34,120 bases of DNA from Bacteroidota bacterium (GTDB taxonomy: Bacteria; Bacteroidota; Bacteroidia; Flavobacteriales_D; Sanyastnellaceae): contig JAQCBJ010000017.1 of assembly GCA_027621555.1 (NCBI GenBank), positions 1-34,120 on the forward strand, written 5' to 3'. Below the pieces are notes generated by a model. That model had not been told where the DNA came from. It ran no database searches and was given only the letters and a program-made list of their open reading frames with translations. The stretch's first letter is position 1, and every line of letters begins with the position of its first letter. The translations under genes were made by a program, and so were the position numbers. Below are positions 3,595 through 33,441 of the stretch, piece by piece.

Positions 3595-3602
3595 TAGCTT
3601 CG
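3595..3602 (+). promoter_or_regulatory. -7 promoter box of histidine kinase gene
   Basis: TAGCTTCG resembles the Bacteroidota -7 consensus TAnnTTTG. It ends four bases (GGCC) before the ATG at 3607. If transcription starts about four bases after the box, the mRNA is leaderless. A TTG lies at 3578-3580, but its 14-base spacing is shorter than usual for a -33 element. Confidence 0.45.
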
Positions 3603-3606
3603 GGCC

Positions 3607-5037
3607 ATGGGTCTGAGGTTCCGCATTTTTCTCGGCATGATGGCGGTCGTGGTGTGCGCATTGCTTGCCACGGGTTTTGTGGCGTATCGCTACGGAGTGG
3701 ATGCGGAGGCGACCTACAACGCCCAGCGATTGTTGCGCAAGGAGGCTGCGTTGCAGCGGAGTTTGAGCTACATGTTGGAGCGCATGGGTGGAAGTGTGGG
3801 CCAAGACAGCTTGGCGATTGTGTTTACAGATCGCATTTGCGAATTGGCGGACGTGCATAGTCTGACGTTTTCGCTTTACAACGGCAGGGGCCATTTGGTG
3901 ACCACCTCAGCAGGTCCAGGGTCTCCGGACAGCACTGTGGCGCTCGATTTGGACGAGGATGTGTTTCGGTCGGCCATCGAGGGTCCAGGTCGTACGGAAA
4001 TCCCCAATGTGCGTGGAGGGACAGAGGTGGTTTGGCCCTTGCGAGGTGGTTCGGGAGAGGTCTTGGCTTTGGGGCATGTTCACTACGACCCCCGTGAAGC
4101 GGAAGAGGCCGATTGGAAGGCCTTTCTGGTTCGGTTGACGCCTGTTTACTTGCTGCTCTTTTTGTTGGTGGGGCTGTTGGCGTTTTCCTTGTCCAATTCC
4201 ATCGTTTGGCCTTTGAGGCGTTTGAGTTTGGACATGCGCTCCAACCCACTTCAGAGAGAGGGTAGCCAAACCCTGGAATACCGCTGGAAGGATGAAATTG
4301 GTGCATTGGTCAGCGCGTACAACGGCTTGTTGCTCAAGCTCGAAGAGAGCATGAACGCCCGCGCCTCCCTCGAAAGGGAAGGTGCGTGGCGCGAGATGGC
4401 GCAGCAAGTTGCGCACGAGATCAAAAACCCGCTCACCCCATTGAAACTTGGTGCGCAGCATCTGGAACGCGCGTGGTCAGACAAGGCCCCTGACTTTGAA
4501 GCGAGGCTTCAGCGCTACACCCAAACCACGGTGCAACAAATCGACGCATTGAGCCACATCGCCGAAGGCTTCGCGTTGCTTGCGACGGACGGCAAGGCAG
4601 AACCCACTGTTCTGGACATGGTGAATGTGGCCGCTGATGTGGTGAATTTGCACGAGGCAGAAGGTGCGGTGCTTGAGGCCCCTGAGTTTCCCCTTTTCGT
4701 CAGGGCGGACCGAACGCGCCTCACGCGGGCCCTGAATAACCTGATCCGGAATGCCTTGGAGTCCAACGGAGGAAACCCTGTGGATGTGGGCATTCGCATT
4801 CGTTCAGAGAACGACACAGTCTATGTCGAGGTTTGGGATCGTGGGCTTGGAATTGAGCAAGGCCGTTTGGCGCGGATTTTTGAGCCCAAGTTCACAACGA
4901 AGACCCACGGACTTGGCCTTGGTCTGGCGATGGTTCAAGCCATTGTGAAAGGAGCGAAGGGTGCGATCCGTGTGGAATCTGACGGGGCAACAGGCACGAC
5001 GTTCACCCTCTCCCTTCCCTTGATAGATTTGATGTAG
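3607..5037 (+). CDS. NtrY-like sensor histidine kinase
   Basis: This is a membrane-bound two-component sensor that autophosphorylates on histidine. The 476-aa protein has a first membrane helix (about 6-28), an extracytoplasmic sensing region of about 145 residues, a second helix (about 178-198), and a HAMP linker starting at SIVWPLRRLSLDM. The dimerization domain carries the phospho-acceptor in QVAHEIKNPLTPLKLGAQHL (His270), the form typical of NtrY-type kinases. The ATPase domain shows the N box (NNLIRNALESN, 377-387), G1 DRGLGI (411-416), the F box (FEPKFTTK) and G2 GLGLGL (435-440). All catalytic residues look intact. No response regulator is adjacent, so the partner is unknown. It starts 47 bases after atpG and has its own promoter-like box. 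Confidence 0.93.
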   Translation: MGLRFRIFLGMMAVVVCALLATGFVAYRYGVDAEATYNAQRLLRKEAALQRSLSYMLERMGGSVGQDSLAIVFTDRICELADVHSLTFSLYNGRGHLVTTSAGPGSPDSTVALDLDEDVFRSAIEGPGRTEIPNVRGGTEVVWPLRGGSGEVLALGHVHYDPREAEEADWKAFLVRLTPVYLLLFLLVGLLAFSLSNSIVWPLRRLSLDMRSNPLQREGSQTLEYRWKDEIGALVSAYNGLLLKLEESMNARASLEREGAWREMAQQVAHEIKNPLTPLKLGAQHLERAWSDKAPDFEARLQRYTQTTVQQIDALSHIAEGFALLATDGKAEPTVLDMVNVAADVVNLHEAEGAVLEAPEFPLFVRADRTRLTRALNNLIRNALESNGGNPVDVGIRIRSENDTVYVEVWDRGLGIEQGRLARIFEPKFTTKTHGLGLGLAMVQAIVKGAKGAIRVESDGATGTTFTLSLPLIDLM

Positions 5038-5040
5038 AGG

Positions 5041-5071
5041 AGGTTGCCAACAAGAGGTTGGTGGTCTTTTT
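5041..5071 (+). terminator. Probable intrinsic terminator after histidine kinase
   Basis: An 11-pair stem (5041-5051 with 5057-5067, loop AAGAG) includes several G-U pairs as RNA and runs into a T tract (5067-5071). It begins three bases after the kinase stop codon. The lower half of the stem depends on wobble pairs, so efficiency is uncertain. Confidence 0.5.
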
Positions 5072-5197
5072 GATACTGAAATCACATGTTAAGATTTTGT
5101 AATCGAATGGAATATGCGCACCTTCGCTCGGATGTGGAGCGCGCTGTCGAAGTGCCTCTGCGGTCCTTAACACTACGTTTCATTCATTCTTTCATTC
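5072..5197 (+). promoter_or_regulatory. Leader region of SusC gene with CATT repeats
   Basis: This non-coding stretch upstream of the SusC gene holds a possible -7 box, TACGTTTC (5174-5181), 16 bases before the ATG. Directly after it come tetranucleotide units CATT-CATT-CTTT-CATT-CATG (5181-5200), the last running into the start codon. No convincing -33 TTG lies at the expected distance, so the promoter call is tentative. The AT-rich, Shine-Dalgarno-free leader is normal for Bacteroidota. Confidence 0.35.
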
Positions 5198-8100
5198 ATG
5201 AAAATCAGAAGTCTTATGCTCCTGGGTCTGGGCTTGATGTCCTCGGTCCTTTGGGCGCAAACCACCGCCTCGCCGGTGAGAACCACCGTCAAGGGCACGG
5301 TGACCGACAAATCTTCTGGCGATTCGTTGCCAGGGGTGGCCGTCGTTGTTGACGGCAAATCGACGGGTGTATTCACGGGCGTCGATGGAGGGTTTTCCAT
5401 TGCGGCCGATCCGGCATCCGATGTCTTGGTGTTCAGCTTTGTCGGCTACACCACCCAACGTGTTTCTCTCAATGGCCAAACCACGGTCAACGTTTCCCTC
5501 GAAAGCGGGGTGGCGCTCGACGAAGTTGTGGTGACGGCGTTGGGCGTGTCGCGTGAGAAGAAGGCCTTGGGCTATGCCGTCCAAGAACTCGGCAACGAGT
5601 CCTTTACCCAAGCGAAGAACGACAACGTGGTTCGAGCGCTTTCTGGAAAGGTGGCAGGGGTTCAGGTGACCTCGGGCACGAGCATGGGTTCTTCTTCGAA
5701 AGTCCTTCTGCGCGGTGCCAGCTCGATCACAGGAGACAACCAGCCACTTTTCGTGGTGGACGGTGTGCCCATCGACAACAGCGACTACTCGTCGTACAAC
5801 CAACAGCGTGGCGCAGGCGCATACGACTACGGCAACACGGCGGCGGACATCAACCCAGAAGACATTGAGTCTGTGACGGTGTTGAAAGGTCCAGCGGCGG
5901 CGGCGCTTTACGGTTCTCGCGCCTCGAACGGTGCCATCGTCATCACCACGAAATCAGGCAAGGGAATGAAGGGCAAGGATGGCCTCGGTATTGAGGTGAA
6001 CTCCGGCGTGGCATTCAACAATGTGCTTTTCCTCCCCGACTACCAAAACAGCTACGGCGGCGGTGCGGGTCCAACGTGGATTTACCAGAGCAGCGACACG
6101 ATGAGCAACGGCGCCATTGCAGACGCCAACGTGCCTGACATGGGTTACGACGGATCATGGGGACCTGCTCTCGACGGTTCAGCGACGCGTCACTGGGACA
6201 GCTGGTACGAAGGAAGCGACACCTACGGTGAGATTCGCCCATGGGAAGCCAACCCCAACAACGTGGCGGACTTCTTCCAAACGGGTGTGACCTACACGAA
6301 CAACGTGGCGGTTTCAGGCGCGAGCGAAGCGGGCAACTTCCGCTTGTCGTACACCAACCACGACCAGACGGGCATCTACGAGAACTCTTCGTTGGAACGC
6401 AACACGTTGAATTTCAACGGTTCGTCCAACATAAGCGAGAAGATCAAGAGCTCCGTGAGCGTGAACTACGTGAACTCAGCGTCTCAAGGCCGTCCGTTGA
6501 CGGGTTACGGCGAATCCATCATGAGCCAATTCACGCAGTGGGGCCAACGTCAACTTGACGACGCTCGCTTGCGCGACTACAAGAACCCAGACGGCACGCA
6601 CCGCACCTGGAACCGCAACTCCATTACGGATGGCACGCCTCACTACTGGGACAACCCGTACTGGGAGCGTTTTGAGAACGTCCAAAACGATTCTCGCAAC
6701 CGCCTCTTCGGTAACGTAAGCTTGAATTACAAGATCAACGACAACCTCTCATTGCAGGGGCGTTCCATGGTCGACTACTACACGGACCGTCGCCAAGAGC
6801 GCATTGCCGTGGGTGGCGTCCGCGTCTCTAGCTACAGCGAGCAAAACCGCGAGTTGAAGGAAACCAACCACGACTTGATTTTGAACTACACCAACGACAT
6901 CAGCGAGGACGTTTCCTTGACCGGTTTTGTGGGTGTGAACCAGCGCAACTACAGCTACATCAATGTCGGAGGAGCAACCCAGGGGGGGTTGAATACAGCG
7001 GGTTACTACAGCTTGCTCAACAGTGTAAGCCCAATGGAAGTTACCGACTTCGAGCAGCAAAAAACCATCAACTCTGCCTTTGGTAGCGTGAGCTTGGGCA
7101 TCAACCGCAGCTTGTACTTGGATTTCACGGGTCGAAACGACTGGAGCTCGACGCTTCCTGAAGCGAGCAACAGCTACTTCTACCCTTCAGCCACGGCGAG
7201 TTACGTGTTCTCAGAAGTGGTGGACAACGACTTGTTGGACTTCGGAAAGATCCGCCTTGGATGGGCGCAAGTCGGAAACGACACGGATCCTTACCGCACT
7301 TCCACGACCTACTCGATCAACCCCAACTTCGGGTCCTATGGAAACGCGAGTGTGCCTAATGTGCTCAACAATCCAAATCTTCGTCCAGAAAAGACGTCCA
7401 GCTTGGAGGTGGGCGTGGAAGCCACGTTGCTTGAAGGTAGGGTCCGCTTCGACGGTACGTACTACAACAGCACGACGGAAGACTTGATTTTCTCGGTGAC
7501 GCAGTCTGCCGCTTCAGGTTACACTGCGGCAATTCAGAATGCGGGCAAAGTCAACAACAAGGGTGTTGAGTTGATGTTGGAAGTCTCCCCGGTGGTGACG
7601 GACAACTTCCGTTGGGACATTGGTCTCAACTACGCGAAGAACACCAACGAGCTCCTCGAATTGGCGGAAGGCGTGGAGAACCTGCGTTATGCTTCTTTGT
7701 TTGGCGTGACGTTGGAGGCTCGTCCAGGCGAAGCGCTTGGAACATTCTACGGCTACAACTACGTGTTTGACGCCGACGGCAACAAATTGGTAGACGCGGA
7801 CGGATACTACCTCTTGTCAGACGCGCCTGAAGCGTTGGGTTCCATTTTGCCTGACTTTACTGGTGGTGTGACAAATACCTTCACGATGGGCGATTTGAGC
7901 TTGTACGCATTGATTGACTTCCAGAAGGGAGGCTCATTGCACAGCCTCTCCAACCAATGGGGCAAGTACTCCGGTACCTTGTACGAAACCGTGTGGGATG
8001 CGGACGGTAACGACATCCGTGCAGACGACTACGCGGGTGTTGTGGTGGACGGCGTGACGGCCGCTTACGATGCGGACGGAAACTTGTTGACGGATGCAGA

Positions 8101-8449
8101 AGGAAACGTTCAAAGCTCAGGTGAAGCCAACACGGTGGGCATCAACCCGCAAGACCACTTCTTCCTCAACCAAGGGTACGTGTTGCACGCTGCTGACCAA
8201 TACGACGCGTCTTTCGTGAAGTTGCGTGAGGTTCGATTGAATTACAACTTGCCTGCCAGCGCAACCTCTGGTTTGCCCTTCTCCAACGTGAGCGTGGGTG
8301 TGTACGGTCGGAACTTAGCGATCCTGCATAAAAACGTTCCTCACATCGATCCTGAAGTTGCGACATCTGCCTCCAACATTCAAGGATTTGAAGGCGGTCA
8401 GTTGCCCACGGAACGTACCGTTGGTGTGAATTTGAAATTCACCCTGTAA
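5198..8449 (+). CDS. SusC/RagA-family TonB-dependent outer-membrane transporter
   Basis: This large TonB-dependent receptor imports oligomeric nutrients across the outer membrane together with a SusD lipoprotein lid. The 1083-aa protein starts with a signal peptide (to about residue 21, LGLMSSVLWAQ). A carboxypeptidase-regulatory-like domain (about 28-105, GTVTDKSSGDSLPGVAVVV) follows. Then comes the plug domain with ALSGKVAGVQV, PLFVVDGVPIDN and IESVTVLKGPAAAALYGSRA. The remainder is beta barrel, ending in VGVNLKFTL with a terminal hydrophobic strand. The C-terminal third holds Asp/Gly-rich loops (DADGNKLVDADG, DADGNLLTDAEG). It is followed 26 bases later by its SusD partner. Substrate cannot be read from the sequence, and no glycoside hydrolase, sulfatase or regulator is adjacent. 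Confidence 0.95.
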   Translation: MKIRSLMLLGLGLMSSVLWAQTTASPVRTTVKGTVTDKSSGDSLPGVAVVVDGKSTGVFTGVDGGFSIAADPASDVLVFSFVGYTTQRVSLNGQTTVNVSLESGVALDEVVVTALGVSREKKALGYAVQELGNESFTQAKNDNVVRALSGKVAGVQVTSGTSMGSSSKVLLRGASSITGDNQPLFVVDGVPIDNSDYSSYNQQRGAGAYDYGNTAADINPEDIESVTVLKGPAAAALYGSRASNGAIVITTKSGKGMKGKDGLGIEVNSGVAFNNVLFLPDYQNSYGGGAGPTWIYQSSDTMSNGAIADANVPDMGYDGSWGPALDGSATRHWDSWYEGSDTYGEIRPWEANPNNVADFFQTGVTYTNNVAVSGASEAGNFRLSYTNHDQTGIYENSSLERNTLNFNGSSNISEKIKSSVSVNYVNSASQGRPLTGYGESIMSQFTQWGQRQLDDARLRDYKNPDGTHRTWNRNSITDGTPHYWDNPYWERFENVQNDSRNRLFGNVSLNYKINDNLSLQGRSMVDYYTDRRQERIAVGGVRVSSYSEQNRELKETNHDLILNYTNDISEDVSLTGFVGVNQRNYSYINVGGATQGGLNTAGYYSLLNSVSPMEVTDFEQQKTINSAFGSVSLGINRSLYLDFTGRNDWSSTLPEASNSYFYPSATASYVFSEVVDNDLLDFGKIRLGWAQVGNDTDPYRTSTTYSINPNFGSYGNASVPNVLNNPNLRPEKTSSLEVGVEATLLEGRVRFDGTYYNSTTEDLIFSVTQSAASGYTAAIQNAGKVNNKGVELMLEVSPVVTDNFRWDIGLNYAKNTNELLELAEGVENLRYASLFGVTLEARPGEALGTFYGYNYVFDADGNKLVDADGYYLLSDAPEALGSILPDFTGGVTNTFTMGDLSLYALIDFQKGGSLHSLSNQWGKYSGTLYETVWDADGNDIRADDYAGVVVDGVTAAYDADGNLLTDAEGNVQSSGEANTVGINPQDHFFLNQGYVLHAADQYDASFVKLREVRLNYNLPASATSGLPFSNVSVGVYGRNLAILHKNVPHIDPEVATSASNIQGFEGGQLPTERTVGVNLKFTL

Positions 8450-8475
8450 GAACCCAACCTGAAAAACAAAAAATC

Positions 8476-9924: not shown

Positions 9925-9944
9925 GTTGAAATGAACTGAAACGG

Positions 9945-9973
9945 AAAGCCCGGCCTCGTGCCGGGCTTTTTTT
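9945..9973 (+). terminator. Rho-independent terminator of the SusCD unit
   Basis: A perfect 10-bp GC-rich stem (AAAGCCCGGC, 9945-9954, with GCCGGGCTTT, 9960-9969) has a five-base loop, CTCGT. It is followed by an unbroken T tract (9967-9973). It lies 21 bases after the SusD stop and touches the stop codon of the convergent gene at 9972, so it separates the two converging units. Confidence 0.9.
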
Positions 9974-10730: not shown

Positions 10731-10745
10731 GAGGTCAAGAAACGA

Positions 10746-10772
10746 AGAAAGGCGCCACAAGGGCGCCTTTCT
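10746..10772 (-). terminator. Hairpin terminator after outer-membrane protein gene
   Basis: A perfect 11-bp inverted repeat (10746-10756 with 10762-10772) has a five-base loop. Read on the minus strand it is followed by T-rich sequence (TCGTTTCTTG). It lies 24 bases beyond the stop of the barrel-protein gene and 16 bases before the ATG of the next gene on the same strand. It could therefore limit read-through rather than stop it completely. Confidence 0.6.
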
Positions 10773-10795
10773 GAAAAGTTCGAGGGGGATTGTTC

Positions 10796-11830: not shown

Positions 11831-11847
11831 GACTGAAATTTAGGTTT

Positions 11848-11855
11848 CAAAGATT
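11848..11855 (-). promoter_or_regulatory. Possible -7 box of outer-membrane protein gene
   Basis: On the minus strand the sequence reads AATCTTTG, one mismatch from TAnnTTTG. It sits 17 bases before the ATG at 11830. A TTG about 23 bases further upstream is slightly too distant for a standard -33 element. This is a weak call. Confidence 0.3.
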
Positions 11856-11900
11856 CGGTGGTGCAAGAAAGCACAGAACAAGAGATTCACAAAGGCTTTA

Positions 11901-11936: not shown

Positions 11937-11959
11937 AACAAAAACAGCGATGCAAGGTG

Positions 11960-13807: not shown

Positions 13808-13828
13808 GGGCGGTTGGTGAAGTTGAGG

Positions 13829-15139: not shown

Positions 15140-15168
15140 GAGGGCACGAAGTTCAGCAAGAACTCCTC

Positions 15169-15999
15169 TTACTCCGCGACAGCCTCAGTTTTTCCCTCCA
15201 GCATCGTGTCATAGAAAGCGTTAATTTCTGACACGAAGCCCTCTGACCCTTGGTAGGGCAGGATGGGCTTGTCCAAGCTGGCGAGTGTCGCCTGGGACCC
15301 AGGAGTCAAGGATTCCGATCCCACCACAATGGCGTCGGCTTCGCGCATGGCGAGGCTGTTTAGGTTGTCGAAGGTGGGTTCTGCAATGCTTTCCAACGCC
15401 TCAGCCGGAATGCCGTGTGCCACTGCTTTGGCCGCCATGGCTGGGTCGAGCGACCCTTCAAATCCTTCGTCGTAGGCGTGGTAAATCACCTTGGCGTTGG
15501 CGAAGTAGGGCTCGTCTGCGAACACGTGCTTCAAGTACAAAGGAGCCAAGCTCGTCATCCAGCCGCTGCAGTGGATGATGTCTGGAGCCCAGCCCAGTTT
15601 GCGCACTGTCTCGAGCACCCCGCGCACGAAGAACAAGCTGCGCTCGTCGTTGTCTGCGAAGAAGTTCCCGTCGCCGTCTTTCAACACCGCTTTCCGCTTG
15701 AAGTAGGTGTCGTTGTCGATGAAGTAGACTTGAATGCGCGCCGAAGGGATGGAGGCCACCTTGATGATCAGGGGGTGGTCCGTGTCGTTCACGTTCAGGT
15801 TCATCCCTGAAAGACGAATGACTTCGTGGAGCTGGTGCCGACGTTCATTGATCTTGCCAAATCGAGGCATGAACACGCGAATCTCTTTTCCTTTCTCATG
15901 CGTTCCCTGAGGCAACATCCGTGAGACGTGGCTCATGGTGGTTTCTGGGAGGTAGGGAGTGAGGTGCTGAGAAATGTAGAGGACGCGAGGCTTACTCAT
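15169..15999 (-). CDS. Truncated starch/glycogen synthase-like (GT5 N-terminal) protein
   Basis: The 276-aa protein resembles only the N-terminal Rossmann half of GT5 starch/glycogen synthases. Visible GT5-like stretches are RVLYISQHLTPYLPE at the start, RVFMPRFGKINERRHQLHEV, VYFIDNDTYFKRKAVL and GWAPDIIHCSGWMTSLAPLYLK. The ADP-glucose-binding KxGGL motif of true synthases is absent; the start reads QHLTPYLPETTMSHVSRM. The whole C-terminal catalytic half is also missing. The gene ends cleanly and is followed by the next operon gene, so this is not a local frameshift. Proteins of this size next to panC are familiar in Bacteroidota, usually labelled glycogen/starch synthase. I doubt that function. 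It is divergent from panC (98-base gap) and leads the unit with DUF4270 and glmS. Confidence 0.8.
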   Translation of the reverse strand: MSKPRVLYISQHLTPYLPETTMSHVSRMLPQGTHEKGKEIRVFMPRFGKINERRHQLHEVIRLSGMNLNVNDTDHPLIIKVASIPSARIQVYFIDNDTYFKRKAVLKDGDGNFFADNDERSLFFVRGVLETVRKLGWAPDIIHCSGWMTSLAPLYLKHVFADEPYFANAKVIYHAYDEGFEGSLDPAMAAKAVAHGIPAEALESIAEPTFDNLNSLAMREADAIVVGSESLTPGSQATLASLDKPILPYQGSEGFVSEINAFYDTMLEGKTEAVAE

Positions 16000-16027: not shown

Positions 16028-16035
16028 CCAAGATA
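16028..16035 (-). promoter_or_regulatory. Promoter of the GT5-like / DUF4270 / glmS unit
   Basis: On the minus strand TATCTTGG matches TAnnTTTG at all but one position. A TTG lies 20 bases upstream, a suitable -33 element. The box ends 28 bases before the ATG at 15999, giving a leader of about 24 bases, unlike the near-leaderless genes elsewhere in the window. The rest of the 16000-16097 gap shows no equally clear promoter for panC. Confidence 0.6.
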
Positions 16036-19563: not shown

Positions 19564-22089
19564 TTAACGCGCCACCACGAACGACCCCGCCCCCTGAGGT
19601 CGGCCTTCTCCATCGACCAACCGGAGTTCGTACGTGCCCACGGGAAGCGTGCTCACGTTGAGTTGGCCGTTCGTTTGCGCAACGTCGAGAACTTGTTGGC
19701 CCGCGGCGTTGAAGACCAACGCTGAGAGCGCTTCAGGCAAGGAGCGATCGAGCCCTTCCCACCGCAAGAATTCGCTGCATGGGTTGGGGAGAAGGGTGAG
19801 GTCGAGTTCGTTGGACGTGACCTCAGCGAGGCCCACCGACACGTCGCCCTTGGCGAAGGCGTAGTGGCCTTTTCGGAGCTTGGAGATCTTGAACAGGCCG
19901 CTCCCGTTGGAAAGGGAGCCCGCTTGCCAGTCGTAATCGGGGTATTGGACCCAAGGTGCGCCGGCGTGAGGGCGCCAAGCGAGGAACCCGCCTTCTTCGG
20001 TGTCGCCATAGAGGTCGTAGTCCAAATCGTTCACGTCGTTCCCCACGTAGTTGAGGCGGGCGTCAAGCAAGGGCGCGTTCGCCGCGCCATCGTCCCACGT
20101 TCCGTCGACTACCCAAAAGTGCGACCCACTCAGCTCTTCGACGTACGGCGCCTTGGGTCCTTGATCGGGCGCCGCCCAATGGTGCTCGACTCGGACCAGG
20201 ATGCTGTCGCCTTCGGCAATCTCATCGCACCCCACGCGCATGTCAACCCAAGGCAGGTTGGCGAGGCCCGTGGGCTCGGTCACCGCAAACGTGTGGTCGA
20301 GACGGCCCTGGTTGAGGCGGCCGTCGGCATTCAGGCCGAGCAACACAAAGGGTTCTTCATGCCAAAATGTGATCTCGTCAAATTCGCCGCCGACTCGGGC
20401 GTGGACCAGGGTGGTGTCCCAGTTTGCGTTCCACAGCGTGACGTCGAGCGGCTCGTTGTCGTGGAAGTTGTCGCAGGCTCGGAGTTTTTGGTGAAGGTGC
20501 ACGGTCGTGGCGAGGCAGCCGTTGTCCGGCCCGGTGCTCAGGCTGTCGACGACCCACGTGCTGAAGCCCGGTTGCAGGGCCTGCGCCGCGAAAAACGGCG
20601 TCAGGTCTTCGCCCGTCGCCTCTTCGAGGAGCAACTCGAAGTCGGCCACGTCCATGTGGCTGTCGAACCGCGCCGCGATGACGTCTTGCGAGGCCTGGCG
20701 AAACAAGTCGTCGCCGAGGTACGCACGGAGGTTGTGCATGATGCTCGCACCCTTGTAGTAGGTGTGCCGCCCATAAATGTGTTCGTCGGGCATGGGCGAC
20801 AGCGGGTGAAATCCGTCGTCCTGCACGTGGCATTCTTTCAGCACAAACTGCTGGTTGTCCTTGACCAAATCGACAAACGCTTCGTGCCCGTCCTTCCACT
20901 CCACGAACAAGTGGCTGCTGTACTCGGCGGGCCCCTCTTTGAGCCACATGTGGTTGTGGATGGTGGGCGCGACCAGGTCGCCCCACCAATGGTGCCCCAA
21001 CTCGTGTGCGAACAGGTCGCCGTTGGCGAAGTTGCTTTGCTCGACCATGAACCGCGGGTAGGCGATGTTGGTCGGAATCTCCAGCGCCCCGTCGGTGGTC
21101 AGGACGTAGCCCACGCGCTCCCAAGCGTAGGGCCCCCACCAGTACTCGAGCGCGTCAATGGCGTACCCCAAATCCGCAAACTTCTGTTGCATCACCCCCG
21201 AGTCCGCCGCCTTGCTTGTCAGGCGCACAGGGATGTCGCCGTACGCGCCCTCGTGGGTGTAGTCGTGATCCACGTAAGGCCCCACAGCCATGGCGCTGAG
21301 GTGGGTCGGGATGGGGTGGTCCAGAGCCCAGGTGCACAGGAGCGTGTCGCCCCCGAGCTGGACTTCTTCGACCAGGTGGCCTTGGTTGTGGGCGCGGCGC
21401 CCGCCCGCGCTTTGGATGTGGTACGTGTAGGTTGCCCGTTCCACGAAGTTGTCGAAGCACGGGTACCAGACCCGGCCAAAGTTGGGCGGGATCGAGGTCA
21501 GCCCGATGCCGAGGTTGTAGACGAGGTCGCTGGCGTAGTACACCCCGCCCCAGTAAGGGTCGGCGTCGGGTTGTCCCCCGTACCAAACGTCGAGCGTGAC
21601 GGATTCGCCTTCCGCCATGGGGGCAGGCGATTGCACGTGAAGTTCCTGCCCCCACTGGGCGAAGGCGACTCCCGTGCCGTTCCACGTCACGCTGTCGACG
21701 TCGAGCCCCTTGAGGTCCCACCACATCGACGTGCCGCCTCCTTGCAGCACGGTGAAGGTGATCGTGGCGTGCGCATCGAGGGACTGCCCAGCGTAGTCGG
21801 TGACGTCGAGGAACAGCTCGTAATGGGCGACGTCGAAGCTGTCGCTGCGCGCGATGCTCGGCCCCATGTCGTAGTTGTCGACCGGCAAAAACCCACGCGT
21901 GGCGGGCTCGTCGTGCGTGCACCCCACGGCGTGGCACCCCTGGACCAAAAACGGCGTACGGACGGCCCGCGCATGGTCGTGGAGGCGCGTCAGGGAGGTG
22001 TTTTGGGCCAGGAGGCTTCCGCTGGCGATCAGGAGGGCGCCGAGAAGGAGGGAGGGGCGCGCGTTTTTGGGCTGAACGGAGGTGAACAT
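19564..22089 (-). CDS. Secreted M1-family metallopeptidase with T9SS sorting domain
   Basis: This is a zinc aminopeptidase-like enzyme of 841 aa, probably cell-surface or extracellular. A signal peptide (to about residue 29, IASGSLLAQ) precedes an M1 N-terminal beta domain. The catalytic part carries HELGH (362-366) with Glu385 as third zinc ligand in MWLKEGPAEY, the exact HExxH-18-E spacing. The substrate-recognition motif, usually GxMEN, reads GALEIP (334-339), keeping the glutamate but not Met or Asn. The C-terminus (LLPNPCSEFLRWEG through LPVGTYELRLVDGEG) fits a type A T9SS sorting domain, implying export by the type IX system. It is divergent from the SlyD-like gene with 28 bp between starts. 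Confidence 0.93.
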   Translation of the reverse strand: MFTSVQPKNARPSLLLGALLIASGSLLAQNTSLTRLHDHARAVRTPFLVQGCHAVGCTHDEPATRGFLPVDNYDMGPSIARSDSFDVAHYELFLDVTDYAGQSLDAHATITFTVLQGGGTSMWWDLKGLDVDSVTWNGTGVAFAQWGQELHVQSPAPMAEGESVTLDVWYGGQPDADPYWGGVYYASDLVYNLGIGLTSIPPNFGRVWYPCFDNFVERATYTYHIQSAGGRRAHNQGHLVEEVQLGGDTLLCTWALDHPIPTHLSAMAVGPYVDHDYTHEGAYGDIPVRLTSKAADSGVMQQKFADLGYAIDALEYWWGPYAWERVGYVLTTDGALEIPTNIAYPRFMVEQSNFANGDLFAHELGHHWWGDLVAPTIHNHMWLKEGPAEYSSHLFVEWKDGHEAFVDLVKDNQQFVLKECHVQDDGFHPLSPMPDEHIYGRHTYYKGASIMHNLRAYLGDDLFRQASQDVIAARFDSHMDVADFELLLEEATGEDLTPFFAAQALQPGFSTWVVDSLSTGPDNGCLATTVHLHQKLRACDNFHDNEPLDVTLWNANWDTTLVHARVGGEFDEITFWHEEPFVLLGLNADGRLNQGRLDHTFAVTEPTGLANLPWVDMRVGCDEIAEGDSILVRVEHHWAAPDQGPKAPYVEELSGSHFWVVDGTWDDGAANAPLLDARLNYVGNDVNDLDYDLYGDTEEGGFLAWRPHAGAPWVQYPDYDWQAGSLSNGSGLFKISKLRKGHYAFAKGDVSVGLAEVTSNELDLTLLPNPCSEFLRWEGLDRSLPEALSALVFNAAGQQVLDVAQTNGQLNVSTLPVGTYELRLVDGEGRPQGAGSFVVAR

Positions 22090-22093
22090 GCCA

Positions 22094-22101
22094 CCAAGTT
22101 A
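22094..22101 (-). promoter_or_regulatory. -7 box of the M1 peptidase gene
   Basis: On the minus strand TAACTTGG ends four bases (TGGC) before the ATG at 22089. It matches TAnnTTTG except one position. It predicts a transcript starting at or next to the start codon. It shares the 28-bp gap with the divergent box at 22106-22113. Confidence 0.55.
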
Positions 22102-22105
22102 GGTG

Positions 22106-22113
22106 TACTTTCG
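22106..22113 (+). promoter_or_regulatory. -7 box of the SlyD-like gene
   Basis: TACTTTCG ends four bases (CCGC) before the ATG at 22118. The 15 bases from box to start codon differ by one base from those of thiL (23510-23524). No TTG sits at the -33 position. Confidence 0.55.
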
Positions 22114-22117
22114 CCGC

Positions 22118-22570
22118 ATGAAACACGTCGAACTCGGCTCCCTCGTAGAAGTGGCCTACACCTTGCGCGCCAACGGCCCGGAAGGGGATGAATTGGAAAC
22201 CTGCACGGAGGAAGCTCCGTTCGTGTTTCGCGTAGGTGCGGACGAAGCGCTGGAGGCTTTTGAGAAGGGTTTGATGGGCAAGCGCGAGGGCGAGCCGTTC
22301 GAGCTTCACATCGCGTGCGAGGACGCCTACGGGGATGAAACCGACGACGCGGTCGTGCCGCTTCCCAAGGAGACGTTCATGATCGACGGCAAAATCGACG
22401 AAGAGGTTATGCAAGTGGGGGAGGTCGTGCCCATGGAGGACGACGAAGGCAACGAGCTCGTCGGCGTGGTTGTGGAGATCGAAGCCGACGTGGTGCACGT
22501 GGATTTCAACCACCCACTCGCGGGTCTCGACTTGCACTTCGAAGGCGTGGTGGTGGCCATCGGCCAGTGA
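22118..22570 (+). CDS. SlyD-like FKBP-type peptidyl-prolyl isomerase
   Basis: This protein-folding helper catalyses cis/trans isomerization of prolyl bonds. The ATG at 22118 gives MKHVELGSLVEVAYTLRANG and 150 aa; an earlier in-frame GTG at 22103 would overlap the promoter box. The FKBP part (about 1-70 and 115-150) flanks an inserted chaperone flap (about 70-115), the SlyD arrangement. Diagnostic stretches are ALEAFEKGLMGKREGEPFEL, EDAYGDE and VDFNHPLAGLDLHFEG. The His/Cys-rich metal-binding tail of E. coli SlyD is absent, and the protein is very acidic. It has no signal peptide, so it is probably cytoplasmic. Confidence 0.9.
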   Translation: MKHVELGSLVEVAYTLRANGPEGDELETCTEEAPFVFRVGADEALEAFEKGLMGKREGEPFELHIACEDAYGDETDDAVVPLPKETFMIDGKIDEEVMQVGEVVPMEDDEGNELVGVVVEIEADVVHVDFNHPLAGLDLHFEGVVVAIGQ

Positions 22571-22688: not shown

Positions 22689-22696
22689 TCCTTTGC
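22689..22696 (+). promoter_or_regulatory. -7 box of the HAD-like gene
   Basis: TCCTTTGC resembles TAnnTTTG with the A replaced. It ends three bases before the ATG at 22700. A TTG (22668-22670) lies 18 bases upstream of the box, a good -33 spacing. The predicted leader is zero to a few bases. Confidence 0.4.
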
Positions 22697-22699
22697 AGG

Positions 22700-23488: not shown

Positions 23489-23509
23489 CCAAGAGCCGCG
23501 GGGGTGCAG

Positions 23510-23517
23510 TACCTTCG
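23510..23517 (+). promoter_or_regulatory. -7 box of thiL
   Basis: TACCTTCG ends four bases (CCGC) before the ATG at 23522, with the same spacing and nearly the same sequence as the SlyD-like gene. No TTG is seen at the -33 distance. Confidence 0.55.
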
Positions 23518-23521
23518 CCGC

Positions 23522-24574: not shown

Positions 24575-24582
24575 CCTGAGGC

Positions 24583-26478
24583 ATGTGCGGCATCGCGGGA
24601 GCTCACGGACTGGAAGCCTTTCAAGGGCTGGATGATGCCACGGGGCGCGTTCGGGGCATGGTGAGCGCACTCGCCCACCGCGGACCGGATGCCGAAGGGG
24701 TGTGGAGTGACGAAGAGCATGTTGTTCTTGGGCACCGCAGGCTGAGCATCCTCGACACCGGCGACGGAGCCAACCAGCCGTTTTCAATCGGCGAGGACAC
24801 GTTGGTGTTCAACGGGGAGGTCTACAACTACCTCGAACTGCGCCGCGAATTGGAGGCCGAGGGTGCGCACCGTTTCGTGACTTCAGGCGACACTGAAGTC
24901 GTGCTCGTGGCGCTTCGACATTGGGGACTGGAGGATGCGGTTCGCCGCTTCAACGGCATGTTTGCCTTGGCGTGGTGGTCCTCGGCCTCGCGCCGGCTCG
25001 TGCTCGTCCGTGACCGCCTTGGCATCAAACCGCTGTACTGGCACCAGACCCCAGGAGGCACGGTTCTCTTTGCGTCTGAGGTTCGATCCTTGCTGGCTTC
25101 GGGCCTTGTTCCGCCCAAACTCAACCGCGACGCTCTCGCCGACCAATGGATGTACGGCACCGTGCACGCTCCCGCCACCGCCGTCGAGGGGGTGCGACTG
25201 CTCGAACCTGGCGCGCTTCTCGTGATTCACGACGAAGAACTTCACGAGGCGACGTGGTGGGACCCGGCCGACGCGGCCCTGGGCGAGCCCGACCTGTCCC
25301 CGCTGGAACGTCGCCGCCGCATTCGCGAGACCTTGGCCGACTCGGTGGCGCTTCGCATGCGCTCGGACGTGGCGTACGGAGCGTTCTTGTCGGGGGGCAT
25401 CGATTCCAGCGCCATCGTGGGTTTGATGTCCGAAGTGTCGACGCAACCCGTGAGCACGTTCAGTGTGACGTTTGCCGAACAGGAACTCGACGAAAGCCCC
25501 TGGTCTCGGGCCATCGCCAAGCGGTTCCACACCGACCACCACGAGATCCGATTGACGCCTTCCGATTTTCTTGCCCAGGTGCCTTTGGGGTTGTCGGCGA
25601 TGGACCATCCCAGTGCCGACGGCTTGAACACCTACGTGGTGAGCGGAGCGACCCGCGGGGCGGGCGTCAAAGTGGCTTTGAGTGGCTTGGGTGGGGACGA
25701 GTTGTTTGCGGGCTACCCCGTGTTTGCACGAAGCGCCCAGCTTGCCCGCCTCAATTGGTTGGCGGCGTGGCCCAAGGGCCTGCGTCGCTTGGCAGGCACG
25801 GCCTACGCCGCCCTCAAACCAGGAATGACGGCACGCAAACAAGCCGAGATTTTGGCTGGGCACTACTTTGATGTCGCCCACACGTATCCGTTGTCGCGTC
25901 AAATGTTTCTTCGCAGCGACCTCGAGCGCATGCTGACGTCTGACGTGCCCCTCCGGAACGACGTGTTTTCGTGGTTGGTGAAGGAATTGGCGCCCGGGAA
26001 GAAGGCGTTTGGTCTGCCTTTTTTGAGTCAGGTCAGCCTTGCCGAGATGCGGACGTACATGGGGCATACGTTGGTGCGTGACGCCGACCAGTTCAGCATG
26101 GCGCATGCGCTCGAGGTGCGTGTTCCGTTCCTCGATCACCGGCTCGTGGCGGCGGCTCTTGCCGCTCCAGATGCCGACAAGTTTCCGTCGTCGCCCAAGC
26201 GCTTGCTGGTCGAGTCGCTCGACGGCTTGTTGCCGGACGACGTGGTGAACCGTCCCAAGATGGGGTTTGTCTTGCCGTGGGAGTCGTGGATGCGAGGCGA
26301 GTTGAAGCCCGTGTGCGAACGAGGCTTGCAGAGCCTGAAGGACCGCGCTTGGGTGCAGTCCGACGCCGTTTCGGCCATGGAACGCTCGTTCATGGCCGGA
26401 GAAACCCAGTGGTCGTGGAGCCGCGTGTGGTCGTTGGTCGTGCTCGGAGAGTACCTTGAACGCCATGGCTTGGAGTGA
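24583..26478 (+). CDS. asnB: Asparagine synthase (glutamine-hydrolysing), AsnB family
   Basis: This two-domain enzyme transfers ammonia from glutamine to aspartate or, in glycan clusters, to other carboxylates. The 631-aa protein begins MCGIAGAHG with catalytic Cys2. The glutaminase domain includes ALAHRGPDAEGVW, LGHRRLSILDTG and FNGEVYNYLELR. The synthetase domain has the PP-loop SGGIDS (270-275) and VALSGLGGDELFAGYPVF. Near the C-terminus are HALEVRVPFLDHRLV and RPKMGFVLPWESWM. The glycosyltransferase gene overlaps its last 14 bases. The long form plus the GT partner suggests a surface-polysaccharide role rather than plain asparagine supply; that is inference. It starts eight bases after thiL. 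Confidence 0.92.
   Translation: MCGIAGAHGLEAFQGLDDATGRVRGMVSALAHRGPDAEGVWSDEEHVVLGHRRLSILDTGDGANQPFSIGEDTLVFNGEVYNYLELRRELEAEGAHRFVTSGDTEVVLVALRHWGLEDAVRRFNGMFALAWWSSASRRLVLVRDRLGIKPLYWHQTPGGTVLFASEVRSLLASGLVPPKLNRDALADQWMYGTVHAPATAVEGVRLLEPGALLVIHDEELHEATWWDPADAALGEPDLSPLERRRRIRETLADSVALRMRSDVAYGAFLSGGIDSSAIVGLMSEVSTQPVSTFSVTFAEQELDESPWSRAIAKRFHTDHHEIRLTPSDFLAQVPLGLSAMDHPSADGLNTYVVSGATRGAGVKVALSGLGGDELFAGYPVFARSAQLARLNWLAAWPKGLRRLAGTAYAALKPGMTARKQAEILAGHYFDVAHTYPLSRQMFLRSDLERMLTSDVPLRNDVFSWLVKELAPGKKAFGLPFLSQVSLAEMRTYMGHTLVRDADQFSMAHALEVRVPFLDHRLVAAALAAPDADKFPSSPKRLLVESLDGLLPDDVVNRPKMGFVLPWESWMRGELKPVCERGLQSLKDRAWVQSDAVSAMERSFMAGETQWSWSRVWSLVVLGEYLERHGLE
26452..26459 (+). promoter_or_regulatory. 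Possible internal -7 box before the GT4 gene
   Basis: TACCTTGA lies inside the end of asnB and ends five bases before the ATG at 26465. It resembles the boxes of other genes here but could be chance, as it codes for the asnB C-terminus. Confidence 0.3.
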
Positions 26479-27655
26479 CCTTCCCACGGATCGCCCGCTG
26501 CGGATTTTGGCCGTGGTGGAGTGGTACCCGCCGGCGTACCGCGCTGGAGGTCCGATTCGGAGCGTGCACAACCTGATGCGCCTCCTTCAAGCCCAAACCC
26601 CCCACCACCTCGAAGTCGTCTGCGGCAACCGTGACTTGGGCGATTCCGATCCGTTGGAAGGCGTGCCCGTCGATGCAATCCACGACCAGGACGGCATTGC
26701 TGTCACCTACCGTTCCGAAGTGTCGTTGGCGTGGTGGCGGGAGAAACTCCGCGGCTCGGACGACGCCCCTGCCCCGGACGTCCTGTACCTCAACAGCCTG
26801 TTCAGCGTACCCTTCGCGTTGCAGCCCCTTCGCGCGGCCCGCGAACTGGGCACTCGCGTCGTGCTGGCGCCCCGTGGCATGCTCGGCGCCGGCGCCCTGG
26901 CCATCAAACCCGTGAAGAAGAAGCTCTTCCTGACTGTCGCCCAATGGCTGGGCTGGTTCCGGGACGTGCGCTGGCATGCCAGCACAGAGGTCGAGGCGGC
27001 CGATGTGCGGAAGGCGTTTCCGCGTGCGGACATTGCCGTGGCCCAAAACGTTCCGCTGCCGACTCCCGACCCCCTCGAAACCCCCGCCCGCGAGGAAGTG
27101 GTTTGGGTGGCGTTGGGCCGCATCCACCCCATCAAAAACCTGCACTTTGCGCTCGAGGCGCTGCAAAATGTCGACCTCACCCGTCGGGAAGTGGTGGTCG
27201 AGTTGGTGGGGCCGGCGGAGGACGAGGTGTATTTGGGGCAGCTGTTGGGCATGGCCAAGCCTGGGTTGAAGGTGGTGCACCGCGGGCCCGTGCCGCCTCA
27301 GGAGCTGGGGAAGGTGTGGGGCCGGGCGCATGCGCTGTTGATGCCGACGACGCACGAGAATTTTGGGCATGCCGTGGTGGAGGCGTGGGCGCACGGCCGT
27401 CCCGTGCTGTTGAGCGACCAAACCCCGTGGCGCGATCTCAAGCGCAACGACTTGGGATGGGAGCTGCCCCTGGACCGTGCGGTTTGGGTGGAGGGCCTGT
27501 CCGAAGCGTTGAATTGGAGTCCGGAGTTGTGGGGGAGGATGTCGGAAGCGTGCCGCGCCAAGCACAGGGCCTTGGTGGAGGATGCGGGGCTTGTGGCCGC
27601 GAATCGGGCGCTGTTCGAGCGCCCGAGCTTGGGGAGCCCTGCGCCGAGCGCGTAA
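26465..27655 (+). CDS. GT4-family glycosyltransferase
   Basis: This retaining glycosyltransferase of the GT-B fold probably adds a sugar to a lipid-linked or surface glycan. The ATG at 26465 gives MAWSDLPTDRPLRILAVVEW and 396 aa; an in-frame TTG three codons earlier is less likely. The N-terminal domain has YPPAYRAGGPIRSVHNLMRL, the glycine-rich acceptor-side loop. The C-terminal donor domain has WVALGRIHPIKNLHFALEAL, VELVGPAEDEVYL and LLMPTTHENFGHAVVEAWAH, the E-x7-E region of GT4 enzymes. No membrane segment or signal peptide is seen. It overlaps asnB by 14 bases and likely works in the same glycan pathway. Donor and acceptor cannot be deduced. Confidence 0.9.
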   Translation: MAWSDLPTDRPLRILAVVEWYPPAYRAGGPIRSVHNLMRLLQAQTPHHLEVVCGNRDLGDSDPLEGVPVDAIHDQDGIAVTYRSEVSLAWWREKLRGSDDAPAPDVLYLNSLFSVPFALQPLRAARELGTRVVLAPRGMLGAGALAIKPVKKKLFLTVAQWLGWFRDVRWHASTEVEAADVRKAFPRADIAVAQNVPLPTPDPLETPAREEVVWVALGRIHPIKNLHFALEALQNVDLTRREVVVELVGPAEDEVYLGQLLGMAKPGLKVVHRGPVPPQELGKVWGRAHALLMPTTHENFGHAVVEAWAHGRPVLLSDQTPWRDLKRNDLGWELPLDRAVWVEGLSEALNWSPELWGRMSEACRAKHRALVEDAGLVAANRALFERPSLGSPAPSA

Positions 27656-27660
27656 CTTGG
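27653..27660 (+). promoter_or_regulatory. -7 box of the nitronate-monooxygenase-like gene
   Basis: TAACTTGG ends four bases (CGTC) before the ATG at 27665. A TTG (27629-27631) lies 21 bases upstream. It overlaps the stop codon of the glycosyltransferase gene. This is the same box sequence as that of the M1 peptidase gene. Confidence 0.5.
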
Positions 27661-27664
27661 CGTC

Positions 27665-28627: not shown

Positions 28628-28660
28628 GCGCCGCAGCAAGCGCTTCATGGACTTATGTCG

Positions 28661-28668
28661 TATCTTCC
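28661..28668 (+). promoter_or_regulatory. Possible -7 box of the FG-GAP protein gene
   Basis: TATCTTCC resembles TAnnTTTG with two mismatches and would give a leader of about 55 bases before the ATG at 28728. No TTG lies at the -33 distance. The 28628-28727 gap otherwise holds a weak AGCGC/GCGCT dyad (28627-28644) without a T tract. Confidence 0.3.
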
Positions 28669-28727
28669 AAAGCCTTGGGAGTCAACCTTTCGCGAGAAAG
28701 TGTGTTCTTCCAGCAACTGAATACGCC

Positions 28728-31583: not shown

Positions 31584-31605
31584 GCCCTGCTTGAGCGCGG
31601 CGACG

Positions 31606-33405
31606 TCAAGCGTTTGAGCCGTGGAAGTGCACGCGGATGGCGCGCGCAACCTTGAGGTTGACGACGTCGAGCAGGTCTTTTTCTGACGCGGTGGAGATGG
31701 CTTGAACGTCGCCGAACGCGGACATCAGGGCATCTCGAGTTTTAGGTCCTACGCCGGGGACGGCGTCCAGTTCCGAATGCAGAAACGCCTTGCTTCGCCG
31801 GGTCCTGTGGTGGGCCAACGAGAAGCGGTGCGCCTCGTTCCGCATGTGTTGAATCACGCGCAGGCTCGGGGAGCGCTTGTCCAAATAGATCGGCGCGCTG
31901 TCTCCCGGGAAGTACAATTCTTCGAGGCGCTTGGCGATGCCGACCACGGCGATTTTGCCGCGCAAGCCGAGCTCATCGATGGCCTCCAGGGCGTGTGAAA
32001 GTTGGCCCTTCCCTCCATCAATGACCACCAATTGCGGCAGGGACTCGCCTTCGTCGCGCAGGCGCTTGTACCGGCGGTACACCGCTTCCTTCATGCTGGC
32101 AAAATCGTCCGGGCCTTCGACCGTACGGATATTGAACTTCCGGTAATCCCGCTTCGCGGGTTTGCCGTTGCGGAAGACGACGCACGCTGAGGCGGGGTTG
32201 GTGCCCTGGATGTTTGAGTTGTCGAAGCACTCCATGTGCACGGGATGTTCTTTGAGGCGCAGGTCGTGCATCAGGGTTTCCATGAGCCGGTCCTTGGCCG
32301 CGTCGGGGTCGACTTGTTCGAGCTGGGCGTGGCGGTCCCGCATCGCGAACTGCGCGTTGCGCAGGCTCATGTCCAGGAGCTTTTTCTTGTCCCCGCGCTG
32401 TGGGACCAGGCATTCAGCTCCAAGCACGTCAACTTCGGCTTGCGTGAGAACGGTTCGGCTGGCGACGTCGAAGCGGTCCCGAATCTGCGGAATCGCGGCT
32501 TCGAGCAACTCCTCGTCCGACTCGTCGAGGCGGCGGCGGAACTCGAGGGTTTGGCCTTGGACGACGGCGCCGTTGTGGATCCGCATGAAGTTCACAAAGG
32601 CCGACTTGGCGTCGCTCACCAGCCCGTAAACCTCCACGTCCGAGACCGTCGGGTGGACGACGGTGCTCTTGGCTTGGAACTTGTCGACGGCCTGAAGCTT
32701 CAACTTGAGTCGCTCGGCTTCCTCAAATCGCAGGTCGGCCGCGGCTTCGTTCATGGCGTCTTTCAGCGCGGTTTTCACCTCGCCGAGGTTGCCCTTCAGC
32801 ACGTGACGAATGGCCGCGATGCTCTCGCTGTAGTCGTCTTCGGTTTGCTTGCCGACGCACGGGCCCTTGCAGTTCCCGATGTGGTATTCGAGGCACACCC
32901 GGAATTTGCCGCCCGCAATGTTTTCCTCGGTCAGCGCGAGGCTGCACGTCCGAATGGGGTACAGCTTCTTGCACAGGTCAAGGACCGCGTGCATCGCTTT
33001 GACGTTCGAGTACGGCCCAAAATATTCGCTCCCATCCTTGCGCACTTGCCGCGTCGGAAAGATGCGCGGGAAGCGTTCTTTTTTCAGAACGATGAAGGGA
33101 TACGTCTTGTCGTCCTTGAGCTGGATGTTGTAGATCGGCTGGTGCTCCTTGATCATGTTGTTCTCGAGGAGCAAAGCGTCGGCTTCGGTGGCGGTGACGA
33201 TCCACTTGACGTCCCGAATCTTCTTCACCAGCAGCCGCGTTTTGCCGTTGTGGTCTTGCTTGGTGAAGTAGCTGGCGACGCGCTTTTTGAGGTTCTTCGC
33301 CTTGCCGATGTAGAGCAATTTGCCGTCCGCATCGAAGTGCTGGTAGACGCCCGGTTCGTGGGGCATCCGCTCCAGGAGCGCTTGGATGTGATCGGTGGCG
33401 GCCAT
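31606..33405 (-). CDS. uvrC: Excinuclease ABC subunit C
   Basis: UvrC makes both incisions around DNA lesions in nucleotide excision repair after UvrA/UvrB damage recognition. The ATG at 33405 gives MAATDHIQALLERMPHEPGV and 599 aa, the normal length. The open frame continues upstream to 34038, but that part is a shadow of the divergent SDR gene. Domains are GIY-YIG nuclease (GVY 19-21, LLYIGKAKNLKKRVASYF from 31) and the UVR UvrB-binding motif (about 205-235, AAADLRFEEAERLKLKLQAV). The RNase H-like nuclease region follows (HMECFDNSNIQGTNPASACV, LVVIDGGKGQLSHAL). The C-terminal helix-hairpin-helix is LDAVPGVGPKTRDALMSAFG. It converges with the FG-GAP gene, 22 bases between stops. Confidence 0.97.
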   Translation of the reverse strand: MAATDHIQALLERMPHEPGVYQHFDADGKLLYIGKAKNLKKRVASYFTKQDHNGKTRLLVKKIRDVKWIVTATEADALLLENNMIKEHQPIYNIQLKDDKTYPFIVLKKERFPRIFPTRQVRKDGSEYFGPYSNVKAMHAVLDLCKKLYPIRTCSLALTEENIAGGKFRVCLEYHIGNCKGPCVGKQTEDDYSESIAAIRHVLKGNLGEVKTALKDAMNEAAADLRFEEAERLKLKLQAVDKFQAKSTVVHPTVSDVEVYGLVSDAKSAFVNFMRIHNGAVVQGQTLEFRRRLDESDEELLEAAIPQIRDRFDVASRTVLTQAEVDVLGAECLVPQRGDKKKLLDMSLRNAQFAMRDRHAQLEQVDPDAAKDRLMETLMHDLRLKEHPVHMECFDNSNIQGTNPASACVVFRNGKPAKRDYRKFNIRTVEGPDDFASMKEAVYRRYKRLRDEGESLPQLVVIDGGKGQLSHALEAIDELGLRGKIAVVGIAKRLEELYFPGDSAPIYLDKRSPSLRVIQHMRNEAHRFSLAHHRTRRSKAFLHSELDAVPGVGPKTRDALMSAFGDVQAISTASEKDLLDVVNLKVARAIRVHFHGSNA

Positions 33406-33412
33406 CGTTGAA

Positions 33413-33420
33413 CGAAGGTA
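33413..33420 (-). promoter_or_regulatory. -7 box of uvrC
   Basis: On the minus strand TACCTTCG ends seven bases before the uvrC ATG at 33405, predicting a leader of only a few bases. It faces the SDR box (33431-33438) in a 36-bp divergent gap. Confidence 0.5.
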
Positions 33421-33430
33421 GGTCGCGCAG

Positions 33431-33438
33431 TACTTTGC
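33431..33438 (+). promoter_or_regulatory. -7 box of the SDR gene
   Basis: TACTTTGC ends three bases (AGC) before the ATG at 33442. A TTG (33408-33410) lies exactly 20 bases upstream, inside the uvrC leader, giving a well-spaced -33/-7 pair. Confidence 0.55.
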
Positions 33439-33441
33439 AGC

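Follow-up and report, generated by a model that had tools for sequence, protein, structure and literature searches.

A −7 promoter box set four nucleotides before start codons points to leaderless transcripts in a lineage of Bacteroidota

We analyzed a 34,120-nucleotide stretch of a draft Bacteroidota genome (contig JAQCBJ010000017.1, hereafter the window) in which the octamer TAnnTTnG, a form of the −7 box of the Bacteroidota housekeeping promoter, lies a few bases before the start codons of several genes. Our results make it very probable that, in the lineage of the window, an ordinary Bacteroidota promoter is placed for leaderless transcripts, which would represent a known leaderless mechanism in a new lineage. 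The observations are the box, its exact spacing to the start codon, its presence upstream of tRNA genes, its conservation, its preference for the heads of transcription units in the genome of the window and its restriction to AUG. We propose that, in a sizeable minority of genes, the housekeeping promoter (TAnnTTnG, with TAnnTTG and GAnnTT variants) would be placed with the leading T of its box 12 bp ahead of the start codon, that the RNA polymerase would begin transcription at the A of the AUG or no more than ~3 nt away from it, and that the ribosome, by a predicted mode of entry, would initiate on the 5'-terminal AUG without a leader. Since such a transcript lacks a leader, it would offer neither a Shine-Dalgarno sequence nor any other leader signal.

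The window is one of the 129 contigs (C27) of a 2.12-Mb draft genome (G000; 92% complete, 5% contaminated) and has a GC content of 0.59. A comparison of the window with Rfam gave no match at the gathering thresholds, and ARAGORN found no tRNA in it. We refer to the members of the window's genus as congeners (11 genus genomes including G000), while the relatives found through the M1 peptidase of the window are uncultured metagenome-assembled genomes (MAGs), mostly titled Flavobacteriales, several of their project names being those of ocean surveys. All the genomes are drafts, and related genomes are not independent trials.

Boxes in the window and their distance to start codons

A sequence-only reading of the window had listed a TAnnTTnG-like octamer just before nine gene starts. 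We found the exact octamer at six of them, while the boxes before the HAD, GT4 and SDR genes deviate from it. As that reading had stated, five boxes lie exactly 4 nt from the ATG (histidine kinase, M1, slyD, thiL and NMO); the spacings of the remaining four are 7 nt (uvrC), 3 nt (SDR), 3 nt (HAD) and 5 nt (GT4). The seven boxes that we retain, the first six of which are exact, are the following:

3595..3602, plus strand: sensor histidine kinase gene (Pfam HATPase_c/HisKA), ATG 3607; −7 box TAGCTTCG, gap of 4 nt
22094..22101, minus strand: M1-family peptidase gene (Pfam Peptidase_M1), ATG 22089; −7 box TAACTTGG, gap of 4 nt
22106..22113, plus strand: FKBP/SlyD-like gene (Pfam FKBP_C), ATG 22118; −7 box TACTTTCG, gap of 4 nt
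23510..23517, plus strand: ThiL-like gene (AIRS-domain protein), ATG 23522; −7 box TACCTTCG, gap of 4 nt
27653..27660, plus strand: nitronate monooxygenase gene (Pfam NMO), ATG 27665; −7 box TAACTTGG, gap of 4 nt
33413..33420, minus strand: uvrC (Pfam UvrC domains), ATG 33405; −7 box TACCTTCG, gap of 7 nt, predicted leader ~3 nt
33431..33438, plus strand: NAD-dependent epimerase/dehydratase gene (SDR) divergent from uvrC, ATG 33442; −7-like box TACTTTGC, gap of 3 nt

The SDR box TACTTTGC fits the TAnnTTGY variant of Flavobacterium psychrophilum (PMC9723704), and both the SDR and M1 boxes resemble this variant (SM5).

The pattern TAnnTTnG-N4-ATG occurs five times in the window, compared with 0.29 expected, and none of 100 shuffles reached this number. 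The octamer as such was not enriched (17 found, 17.35 expected). As the overall count is at chance and the spacing far above it, it is the position of the octamer that is non-random and not its frequency. The sequence-only reading had also proposed beforehand to look for a peak in the distance between octamer and ATG, and a clear one appeared at 4 nt when we sampled 537 kb (25% of the window's genome): an ATG followed 49 of the 266 boxes at this distance, with 15, 11, 8 and 9 at spacings of 5, 6, 7 and 8 nt, over a background of 4.95 sites per spacing on average at 0-3 and 9-24 nt. With four altered boxes, nothing like this peak was seen at 4 nt in the same 537 kb. Moreover, 37 of the 49 sites coincide with a called gene start or are close to one, compared with none of the nine sites at spacings 0-3, and in the whole G000 genome TAnnTTnG-N4-ATG was found 152 times versus 44 for a reversed-pattern control.

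Two of the nine listed boxes did not hold up as promoters:

26452..26459, plus strand: rejected box TACCTTGA before the GT4 gene, inside the end of the upstream gene 24583-26478
22689..22696, plus strand: unsupported box TCCTTTGC before the HAD hydrolase gene

The GT4 octamer consists of the Tyr-Leu-Glu codons that close the upstream gene and, in five congener copies, it varies codon-wise (Tyr-Leu-Glu/Asp; TACCTTGAC, TACATCGAA, TACCTTGAT and TACCTTGAA), so that from its sequence it is best read as a coding coincidence. The HAD box was dropped because the TA is missing at that place in the genome's own copy and in all five congener copies. These two coincidental boxes and the unenriched octamer are what one would expect if the whole pattern were a chance or compositional artefact of the window, but this explanation, to which we give next to no credence, is already refuted by the counts: the excess is position-specific in the window and in the 537 kb, recurs in 11 of 11 genus genomes and does not appear in a sample of 40 genomes from the class.

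To express the pattern as a share of genes, we used gene starts from a home-made caller whose three versions returned 377, 394 and 416 genes; versions 1-2 served for the start proximity of the 49 sites, the counts of divergent and tightly spaced genes at 4-7 nt and the base profile, and version 3 for the gene-level frequencies, the mixture model and the divergent and tight counts at 4 nt. Among 388 genes of G000, 37 carry TAnnTTnG at 4 nt (mean control 0.5 per spacing), 50 carry TAnnTT at 4 nt (mean control 1.4 per spacing) and 80 carry TAnnTT at 4-7 nt. Without the window, the same three measures give 32, 44 and 73 of 365 genes, with TAnnTT controls of 7 at 9-12 nt and 7 at 13-16 nt. The congener stretches L064-L074 were picked for the M1 locus and are a biased sample; the stretches L075-L083 of G001 and G007, not picked for that locus, were tallied separately, and there the three measures were 13, 18 and 26 of 105 genes (controls 1 and 3). 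After background correction, TAnnTT at 4-7 nt accounts for ~18-24% of genes. A position-fixed mixture model assigned a box at exactly 4 nt to 41% of the G000 genes and 36% of the G001/G007 genes, and to 31% in G631, 19% in G486 and <10% in other groups; this model spills into spacings 3 and 5 and yields 0.26 even at tight co-directional genes, so we treat 36-41% as an upper estimate.

The box as a promoter element and its register

Next, we considered what the box is. Among 13 tRNA genes (14 were found in 57 stretches, and we omitted the second of a tandem pair in L028), 11 have TAnnTTnG 9-55 nt upstream, six of these being TATCTTCG or TATCTTTG, and none of the 11 boxes has an ATG 4 nt downstream; two pairs among the 13 genes look like one gene in two species. 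The box upstream of tRNA genes indicates a general promoter element of which the ATG is not a part. The profile of the boxed starts, gTAcCTTcGnnscATG, was obtained from 96 sites after removing 15 near-identical ones (81 left), with 441 other ATG starts, unthinned, for comparison; these unboxed starts were called in L003-L042, the window and L064-L083. The seventh base of the box is often C, and the favored fill in this lineage is TACCTTCG. Both the profile and the tRNA genes agree with the Bacteroidota sigma-A −7 element (TAnnTTTG) and with the core common to mapped promoters of the phylum, namely T-12, A-11, T-8, T-7 and G-5 in the published maps.

The register of the box sets the predicted 5' end. 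In F. psychrophilum the −7 box spans −12 to −5 (PMC9723704), and in F. johnsoniae it runs from T-12 to G-5, with a distance of 4 or 5 nt between transcription start site and box being a mark of probable promoters (PMC6847099). By analogy with these Flavobacterium promoters, a 4-nt gap would put +1 on the A of the ATG, and gaps of 5-7 nt would give leaders of 1-3 nt. The claim of the sequence-only reading that most of the listed mRNAs would start at or beside the ATG is supported, with "most" being seven genes, by this register together with the conservation of the boxes and their position at the heads of transcription units.

The latter is seen in G000, where TAnnTT lies at 4 nt from 23 of 94 divergent genes versus 4 of 104 genes located ≤20 nt from a same-strand neighbor (Fisher p 1.7e-5), and at 4-7 nt from 35 of 100 divergent (control 2) versus 9 of 102 tight co-directional genes (control 0). 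The G001/G007 sample points in the same direction (9/35 divergent vs 2/22 tight at 4 nt, p 0.11). The start codon matters as well: in every one of the 11 genus genomes the pattern with ATG outnumbers its control, and with GTG in the place of ATG an excess was found in none of the 11 (median ratio 0.41). As for the base before the start codon, C occupies −1 at 89% of the 81 boxed starts versus 65% of the 441 other ATG starts. Transcription tends to start at a purine preceded by a pyrimidine, a preference that the 89% fits, though C is frequent at the other starts too; the 65% at unboxed starts points to a general preference that goes beyond leaderless promoters alone.

Some results weigh against our proposal. 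The boxes at 9 of 102 tight co-directional genes mean that a part of the hits comes from wrongly called starts, internal promoters or chance; neither the small G001/G007 sample (p 0.15, 0.11) nor the sister genera G631 and G486 show a significant preference for divergent genes; and no fixed −33 element (TTTG) was found, with no position between −50 and −14 above 0.15 bits. The −33 motif is also weak, and much less evident, in F. johnsoniae (PMC6847099), so we do not consider it a strict criterion.

The octamer could instead be a translation signal in a leadered mRNA, Kozak-like or ribosome-binding, and not a promoter. Bacteroidota do show non-Shine-Dalgarno preferences in the sequence ahead of start codons (PMC6847099), and C at −1 is favored at starts in general here. 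However, the octamer precedes tRNA genes, which are untranslated; its frequency at 4 nt differs between divergent and tight co-directional genes; the minus-strand gene at 15999 has a box 28 nt away that is kept upstream in congeners; and the published Kozak-like determinant, A at −3 (PMC6847099), occurs at only 20% of the boxed and 18% of the other starts. We therefore regard a translation signal as very improbable.

Neither do we find it credible, to a similar degree, that the boxes are promoters from which transcription starts inside the gene, with translation beginning at a later codon. The start point can shift a few bases relative to a −7 box and the SDR spacer has 3 nt in G000 and G010, but the conserved coding sequence of thiL and slyD begins at the ATG, no excess is seen when GTG takes the place of the ATG, and the spacing is fixed at all the 39 M1 loci described below despite a variable N-terminal and a freely changing spacer sequence. 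Transcription starting at or beside the ATG remains our preferred reading.

Conservation in congeners and taxonomic spread

For seven of the nine listed genes, the box and its distance to the start codon, give or take 1 nt, are conserved in congeners. Chance boxes are rare, but our orthologue scripts favored a boxed ATG when one was reachable and thus lean towards the box. TAGCTTGA with a 4-nt gap precedes the histidine kinase gene in the two congener copies found, and the M1 gene has a box and a 4-nt gap in 10 of 10 congeners. The slyD box is present in 10 of 10, with a gap of 4 nt in eight and 5 nt in two. Upstream of thiL, TACCTTCG is found in 8 of 8 copies (gap of 4 nt in seven and 5 nt in G007), and the DNA further upstream diverges. 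For NMO, [TG]AnnTT lies at 4 nt in the six copies with readable starts, with T-12 changed to G in four of them. The uvrC gene keeps TACCTTCG and its 7-nt gap in the five copies with readable starts, and the SDR gap of 3 nt in G000 and G010 is 4 nt in G001, G002, G007 and G008. The uvrC and SDR genes form a second compact divergent pair (window 33403-33444), both members being boxed, and this boxed pair is conserved in the congeners where both starts could be read.

Two further boxes of the window lie outside the seven:

15147..15154, minus strand: variant box GAACTTCG, 7 nt before ATG 15139, absent from the list of the sequence-only reading
16028..16035, minus strand: starch-synthase-like gene (Pfam Glyco_transf_5), ATG 15999; −7 box TATCTTGG, gap of 28 nt

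The first is conserved as GAACTTCG with a 7-nt gap in the seven congener copies found. The second is an ordinary leadered promoter, with a predicted leader of ~24 nt, and serves as a contrast case; TAnnTTnG is retained upstream in seven of seven congener copies at a variable spacing. In the variant box at 15147-15154, and in the slyD promoters of ten loci among L117-L138 (GACCTTTG), G replaces the first T with the spacing unchanged, which suggests that T-12 is replaceable in this lineage.

Multi-gene units, glmS among them, had been said to lack the pattern, hinting at two initiation classes. This stood only in part: the glmS start of G000 has no box nearby, but in the congener G001 TATCTTCG lies 5 nt before the glmS ATG. 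Two classes are plausible; the box at spacing 28 before the gene at 15999, kept upstream in congeners, fits them, and the glmS of G001 does not.

The genus of the window shows the strongest excess, the family a weaker one and the 40-genome class sample none. The ratio of TAnnTTnG-N4-ATG to its reversed pattern has a median of 6.8 (3.5-11.4) in the 11 genus genomes, 2.2 (1.05-6.9) in the 103 other family genomes listed and 1.02 (0.63-1.34) in the 40 class genomes, which were the first 40 of the same class in a longer listing; the reversed-pattern control tracks base composition, so that a ratio from an AT-rich genome cannot be compared strictly with one from a GC-rich genome. In absolute terms, the excess has a median of 129 sites in the genus versus 72 in the rest of the family. 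When genes were counted, TAnnTTnG at 4 nt was found in 0/49, 6/130, 2/57, 1/74 and 3/75 in sister genera and in 2/61, 2/147 and 2/125 in other families. TAnnTT at 4-7 nt rose above the control in two sister genera, G631 (13/75; controls 1 and 6) and G486 (9/74; controls 2 and 2), and showed no clear excess in the three other families (8/61, controls 5 and 7; 16/147, controls 14 and 15; 11/125, controls 10 and 11). By eye, the ratio reaches 1.5-2.5 in many genomes of family f9 of the same order, and a ~2-3-fold excess is seen in some genomes of family f32 (genera g78 and g104) of another class, possibly an independent case.

A back-to-back promoter, translation and known systems

The ATGs of slyD and M1 are 28 bp apart (window 22087-22120), with only 4 bp between their boxes. 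Because both promoters share this 28-bp intergenic segment, the upstream contacts of each would lie in the coding sequence of the other gene, and both polymerases probably cannot bind the segment at once. We examined 80 M1 loci from named genomes, and slyD is divergent at 39 of them, some of these 39 being the congeners described above. In all the 39 genomes TAnnTT lies exactly 4 nt upstream of the M1 ATG (38 by script plus L137, read by eye; L111, a contig piece without slyD, was excluded), and the identity of M1 to the window copy at the slyD-divergent loci is 56-86%. The 38 tabulated M1 promoters contain 6 box sequences and 13 spacer sequences, with a spacer length that is always 4. On the slyD side, [TG]AnnTT has a gap of 4 nt in 36 of the 38 and 5 nt in two, its first T being G in 10, and the box-to-box distance varies (4, 5, 11 or 14 bp). 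Of the 41 other M1 loci, five have TAnnTT 4-8 nt before an in-frame ATG. This arrangement would offer an extremely compact bidirectional promoter for study.

The closest likeness is with the TA-led leaderless genes of Deinococcus-Thermus and Actinobacteria, in which TANNNT begins ~12 bp upstream of the start codon (PMC3160421). Here, too, we found a box ~12 bp upstream, an AUG start, a position at the heads of transcription units (the last in G000), a transcript predicted to begin at the AUG and a substantial share of genes; unlike the published TANNNT, the box is the Bacteroidota TAnnTTnG. In that survey of 953 bacterial genomes, leaderless genes were reported for a single genome out of 37 from Bacteroidetes/Chlorobi, where they made up 2.4%.

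The promoter placement is unusual for the phylum and directly testable. Mapped Bacteroidota are mostly leadered, with median leaders of 24 and 32 nt in two maps (PMC6847099, PMC9723704, PMC7366714). These papers give 5.5% leaderless of 890 coding sequences in F. psychrophilum (PMC9723704), 3.7% of 5' untranslated regions <10 nt in B. thetaiotaomicron (PMC7366714) and 13% of leaders ≤10 nt with 87% >10 nt in F. johnsoniae (PMC6847099). In contrast, TAnnTT at 4-7 nt here marks more than a third of the divergent genes and about a fifth of all called genes, the published percentages covering genes with a mapped or predicted start site. The boxed genes share with the Kozak-like leadered initiation of Bacteroidota the lack of a Shine-Dalgarno sequence, but that mode reads A at −3 within the leader (PMC6847099), while leaderless mRNAs have no leader and A at −3 is unenriched here. 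From nucleotide bias, it has been suggested that mRNAs of Bacteroidetes carrying such signals might lack a leader (PMC5397173), and the phylum has been classed as Shine-Dalgarno-scarce or as using AT-rich non-canonical sites (PMC10783764, PMC9581028). In titles and abstracts, with most subscription journals outside the coverage, we found no leaderless-rich Bacteroidota lineage.

We also looked at the translation machinery, where an altered 16S 3' end, with loss of the anti-Shine-Dalgarno sequence, was considered as a conceivable cause of non-Shine-Dalgarno initiation. No 16S rRNA gene was found in the 11 genus genomes, either by a search that was positive in just 9 of 14 control genomes or by pattern; at the 16S 3' end of the family members G011, G064, G415, G417 and G436, CCTCC is kept. 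The protein bS21 is part of the machinery that hides the anti-Shine-Dalgarno sequence in Bacteroidota. We considered its loss, and it was not seen, as bS21 is retained in 9 of the 11 genus genomes, and the other two, G009 and G010, have a completeness of 70-73%.

A bolder reading, which we offer tentatively and hold to be somewhat unlikely, is that leaderless initiation is a major mode in the genus and a lesser one in the family, with back-to-back leaderless promoters, down to 28 bp in length, acting as mutually exclusive bidirectional switches fixed over genus-level divergence. If true, it would overturn the view of Bacteroidota as translating almost wholly from non-Shine-Dalgarno leaders. 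The phylum is a model for translation without Shine-Dalgarno sequences and its studied species are mostly leadered; a leaderless-rich lineage would be a natural experiment in which such ribosomes start on bare AUGs. The fixed spacing also provides a practical rule for calling gene starts in MAGs of the window's lineage.

Finally, positions 1-1082 of contig C104 of G000 are 87% identical to positions 1-1082 of the window, and the boxed sites in L018 and L042 are near-duplicates. Both observations probably reflect a second strain or species in the bin.

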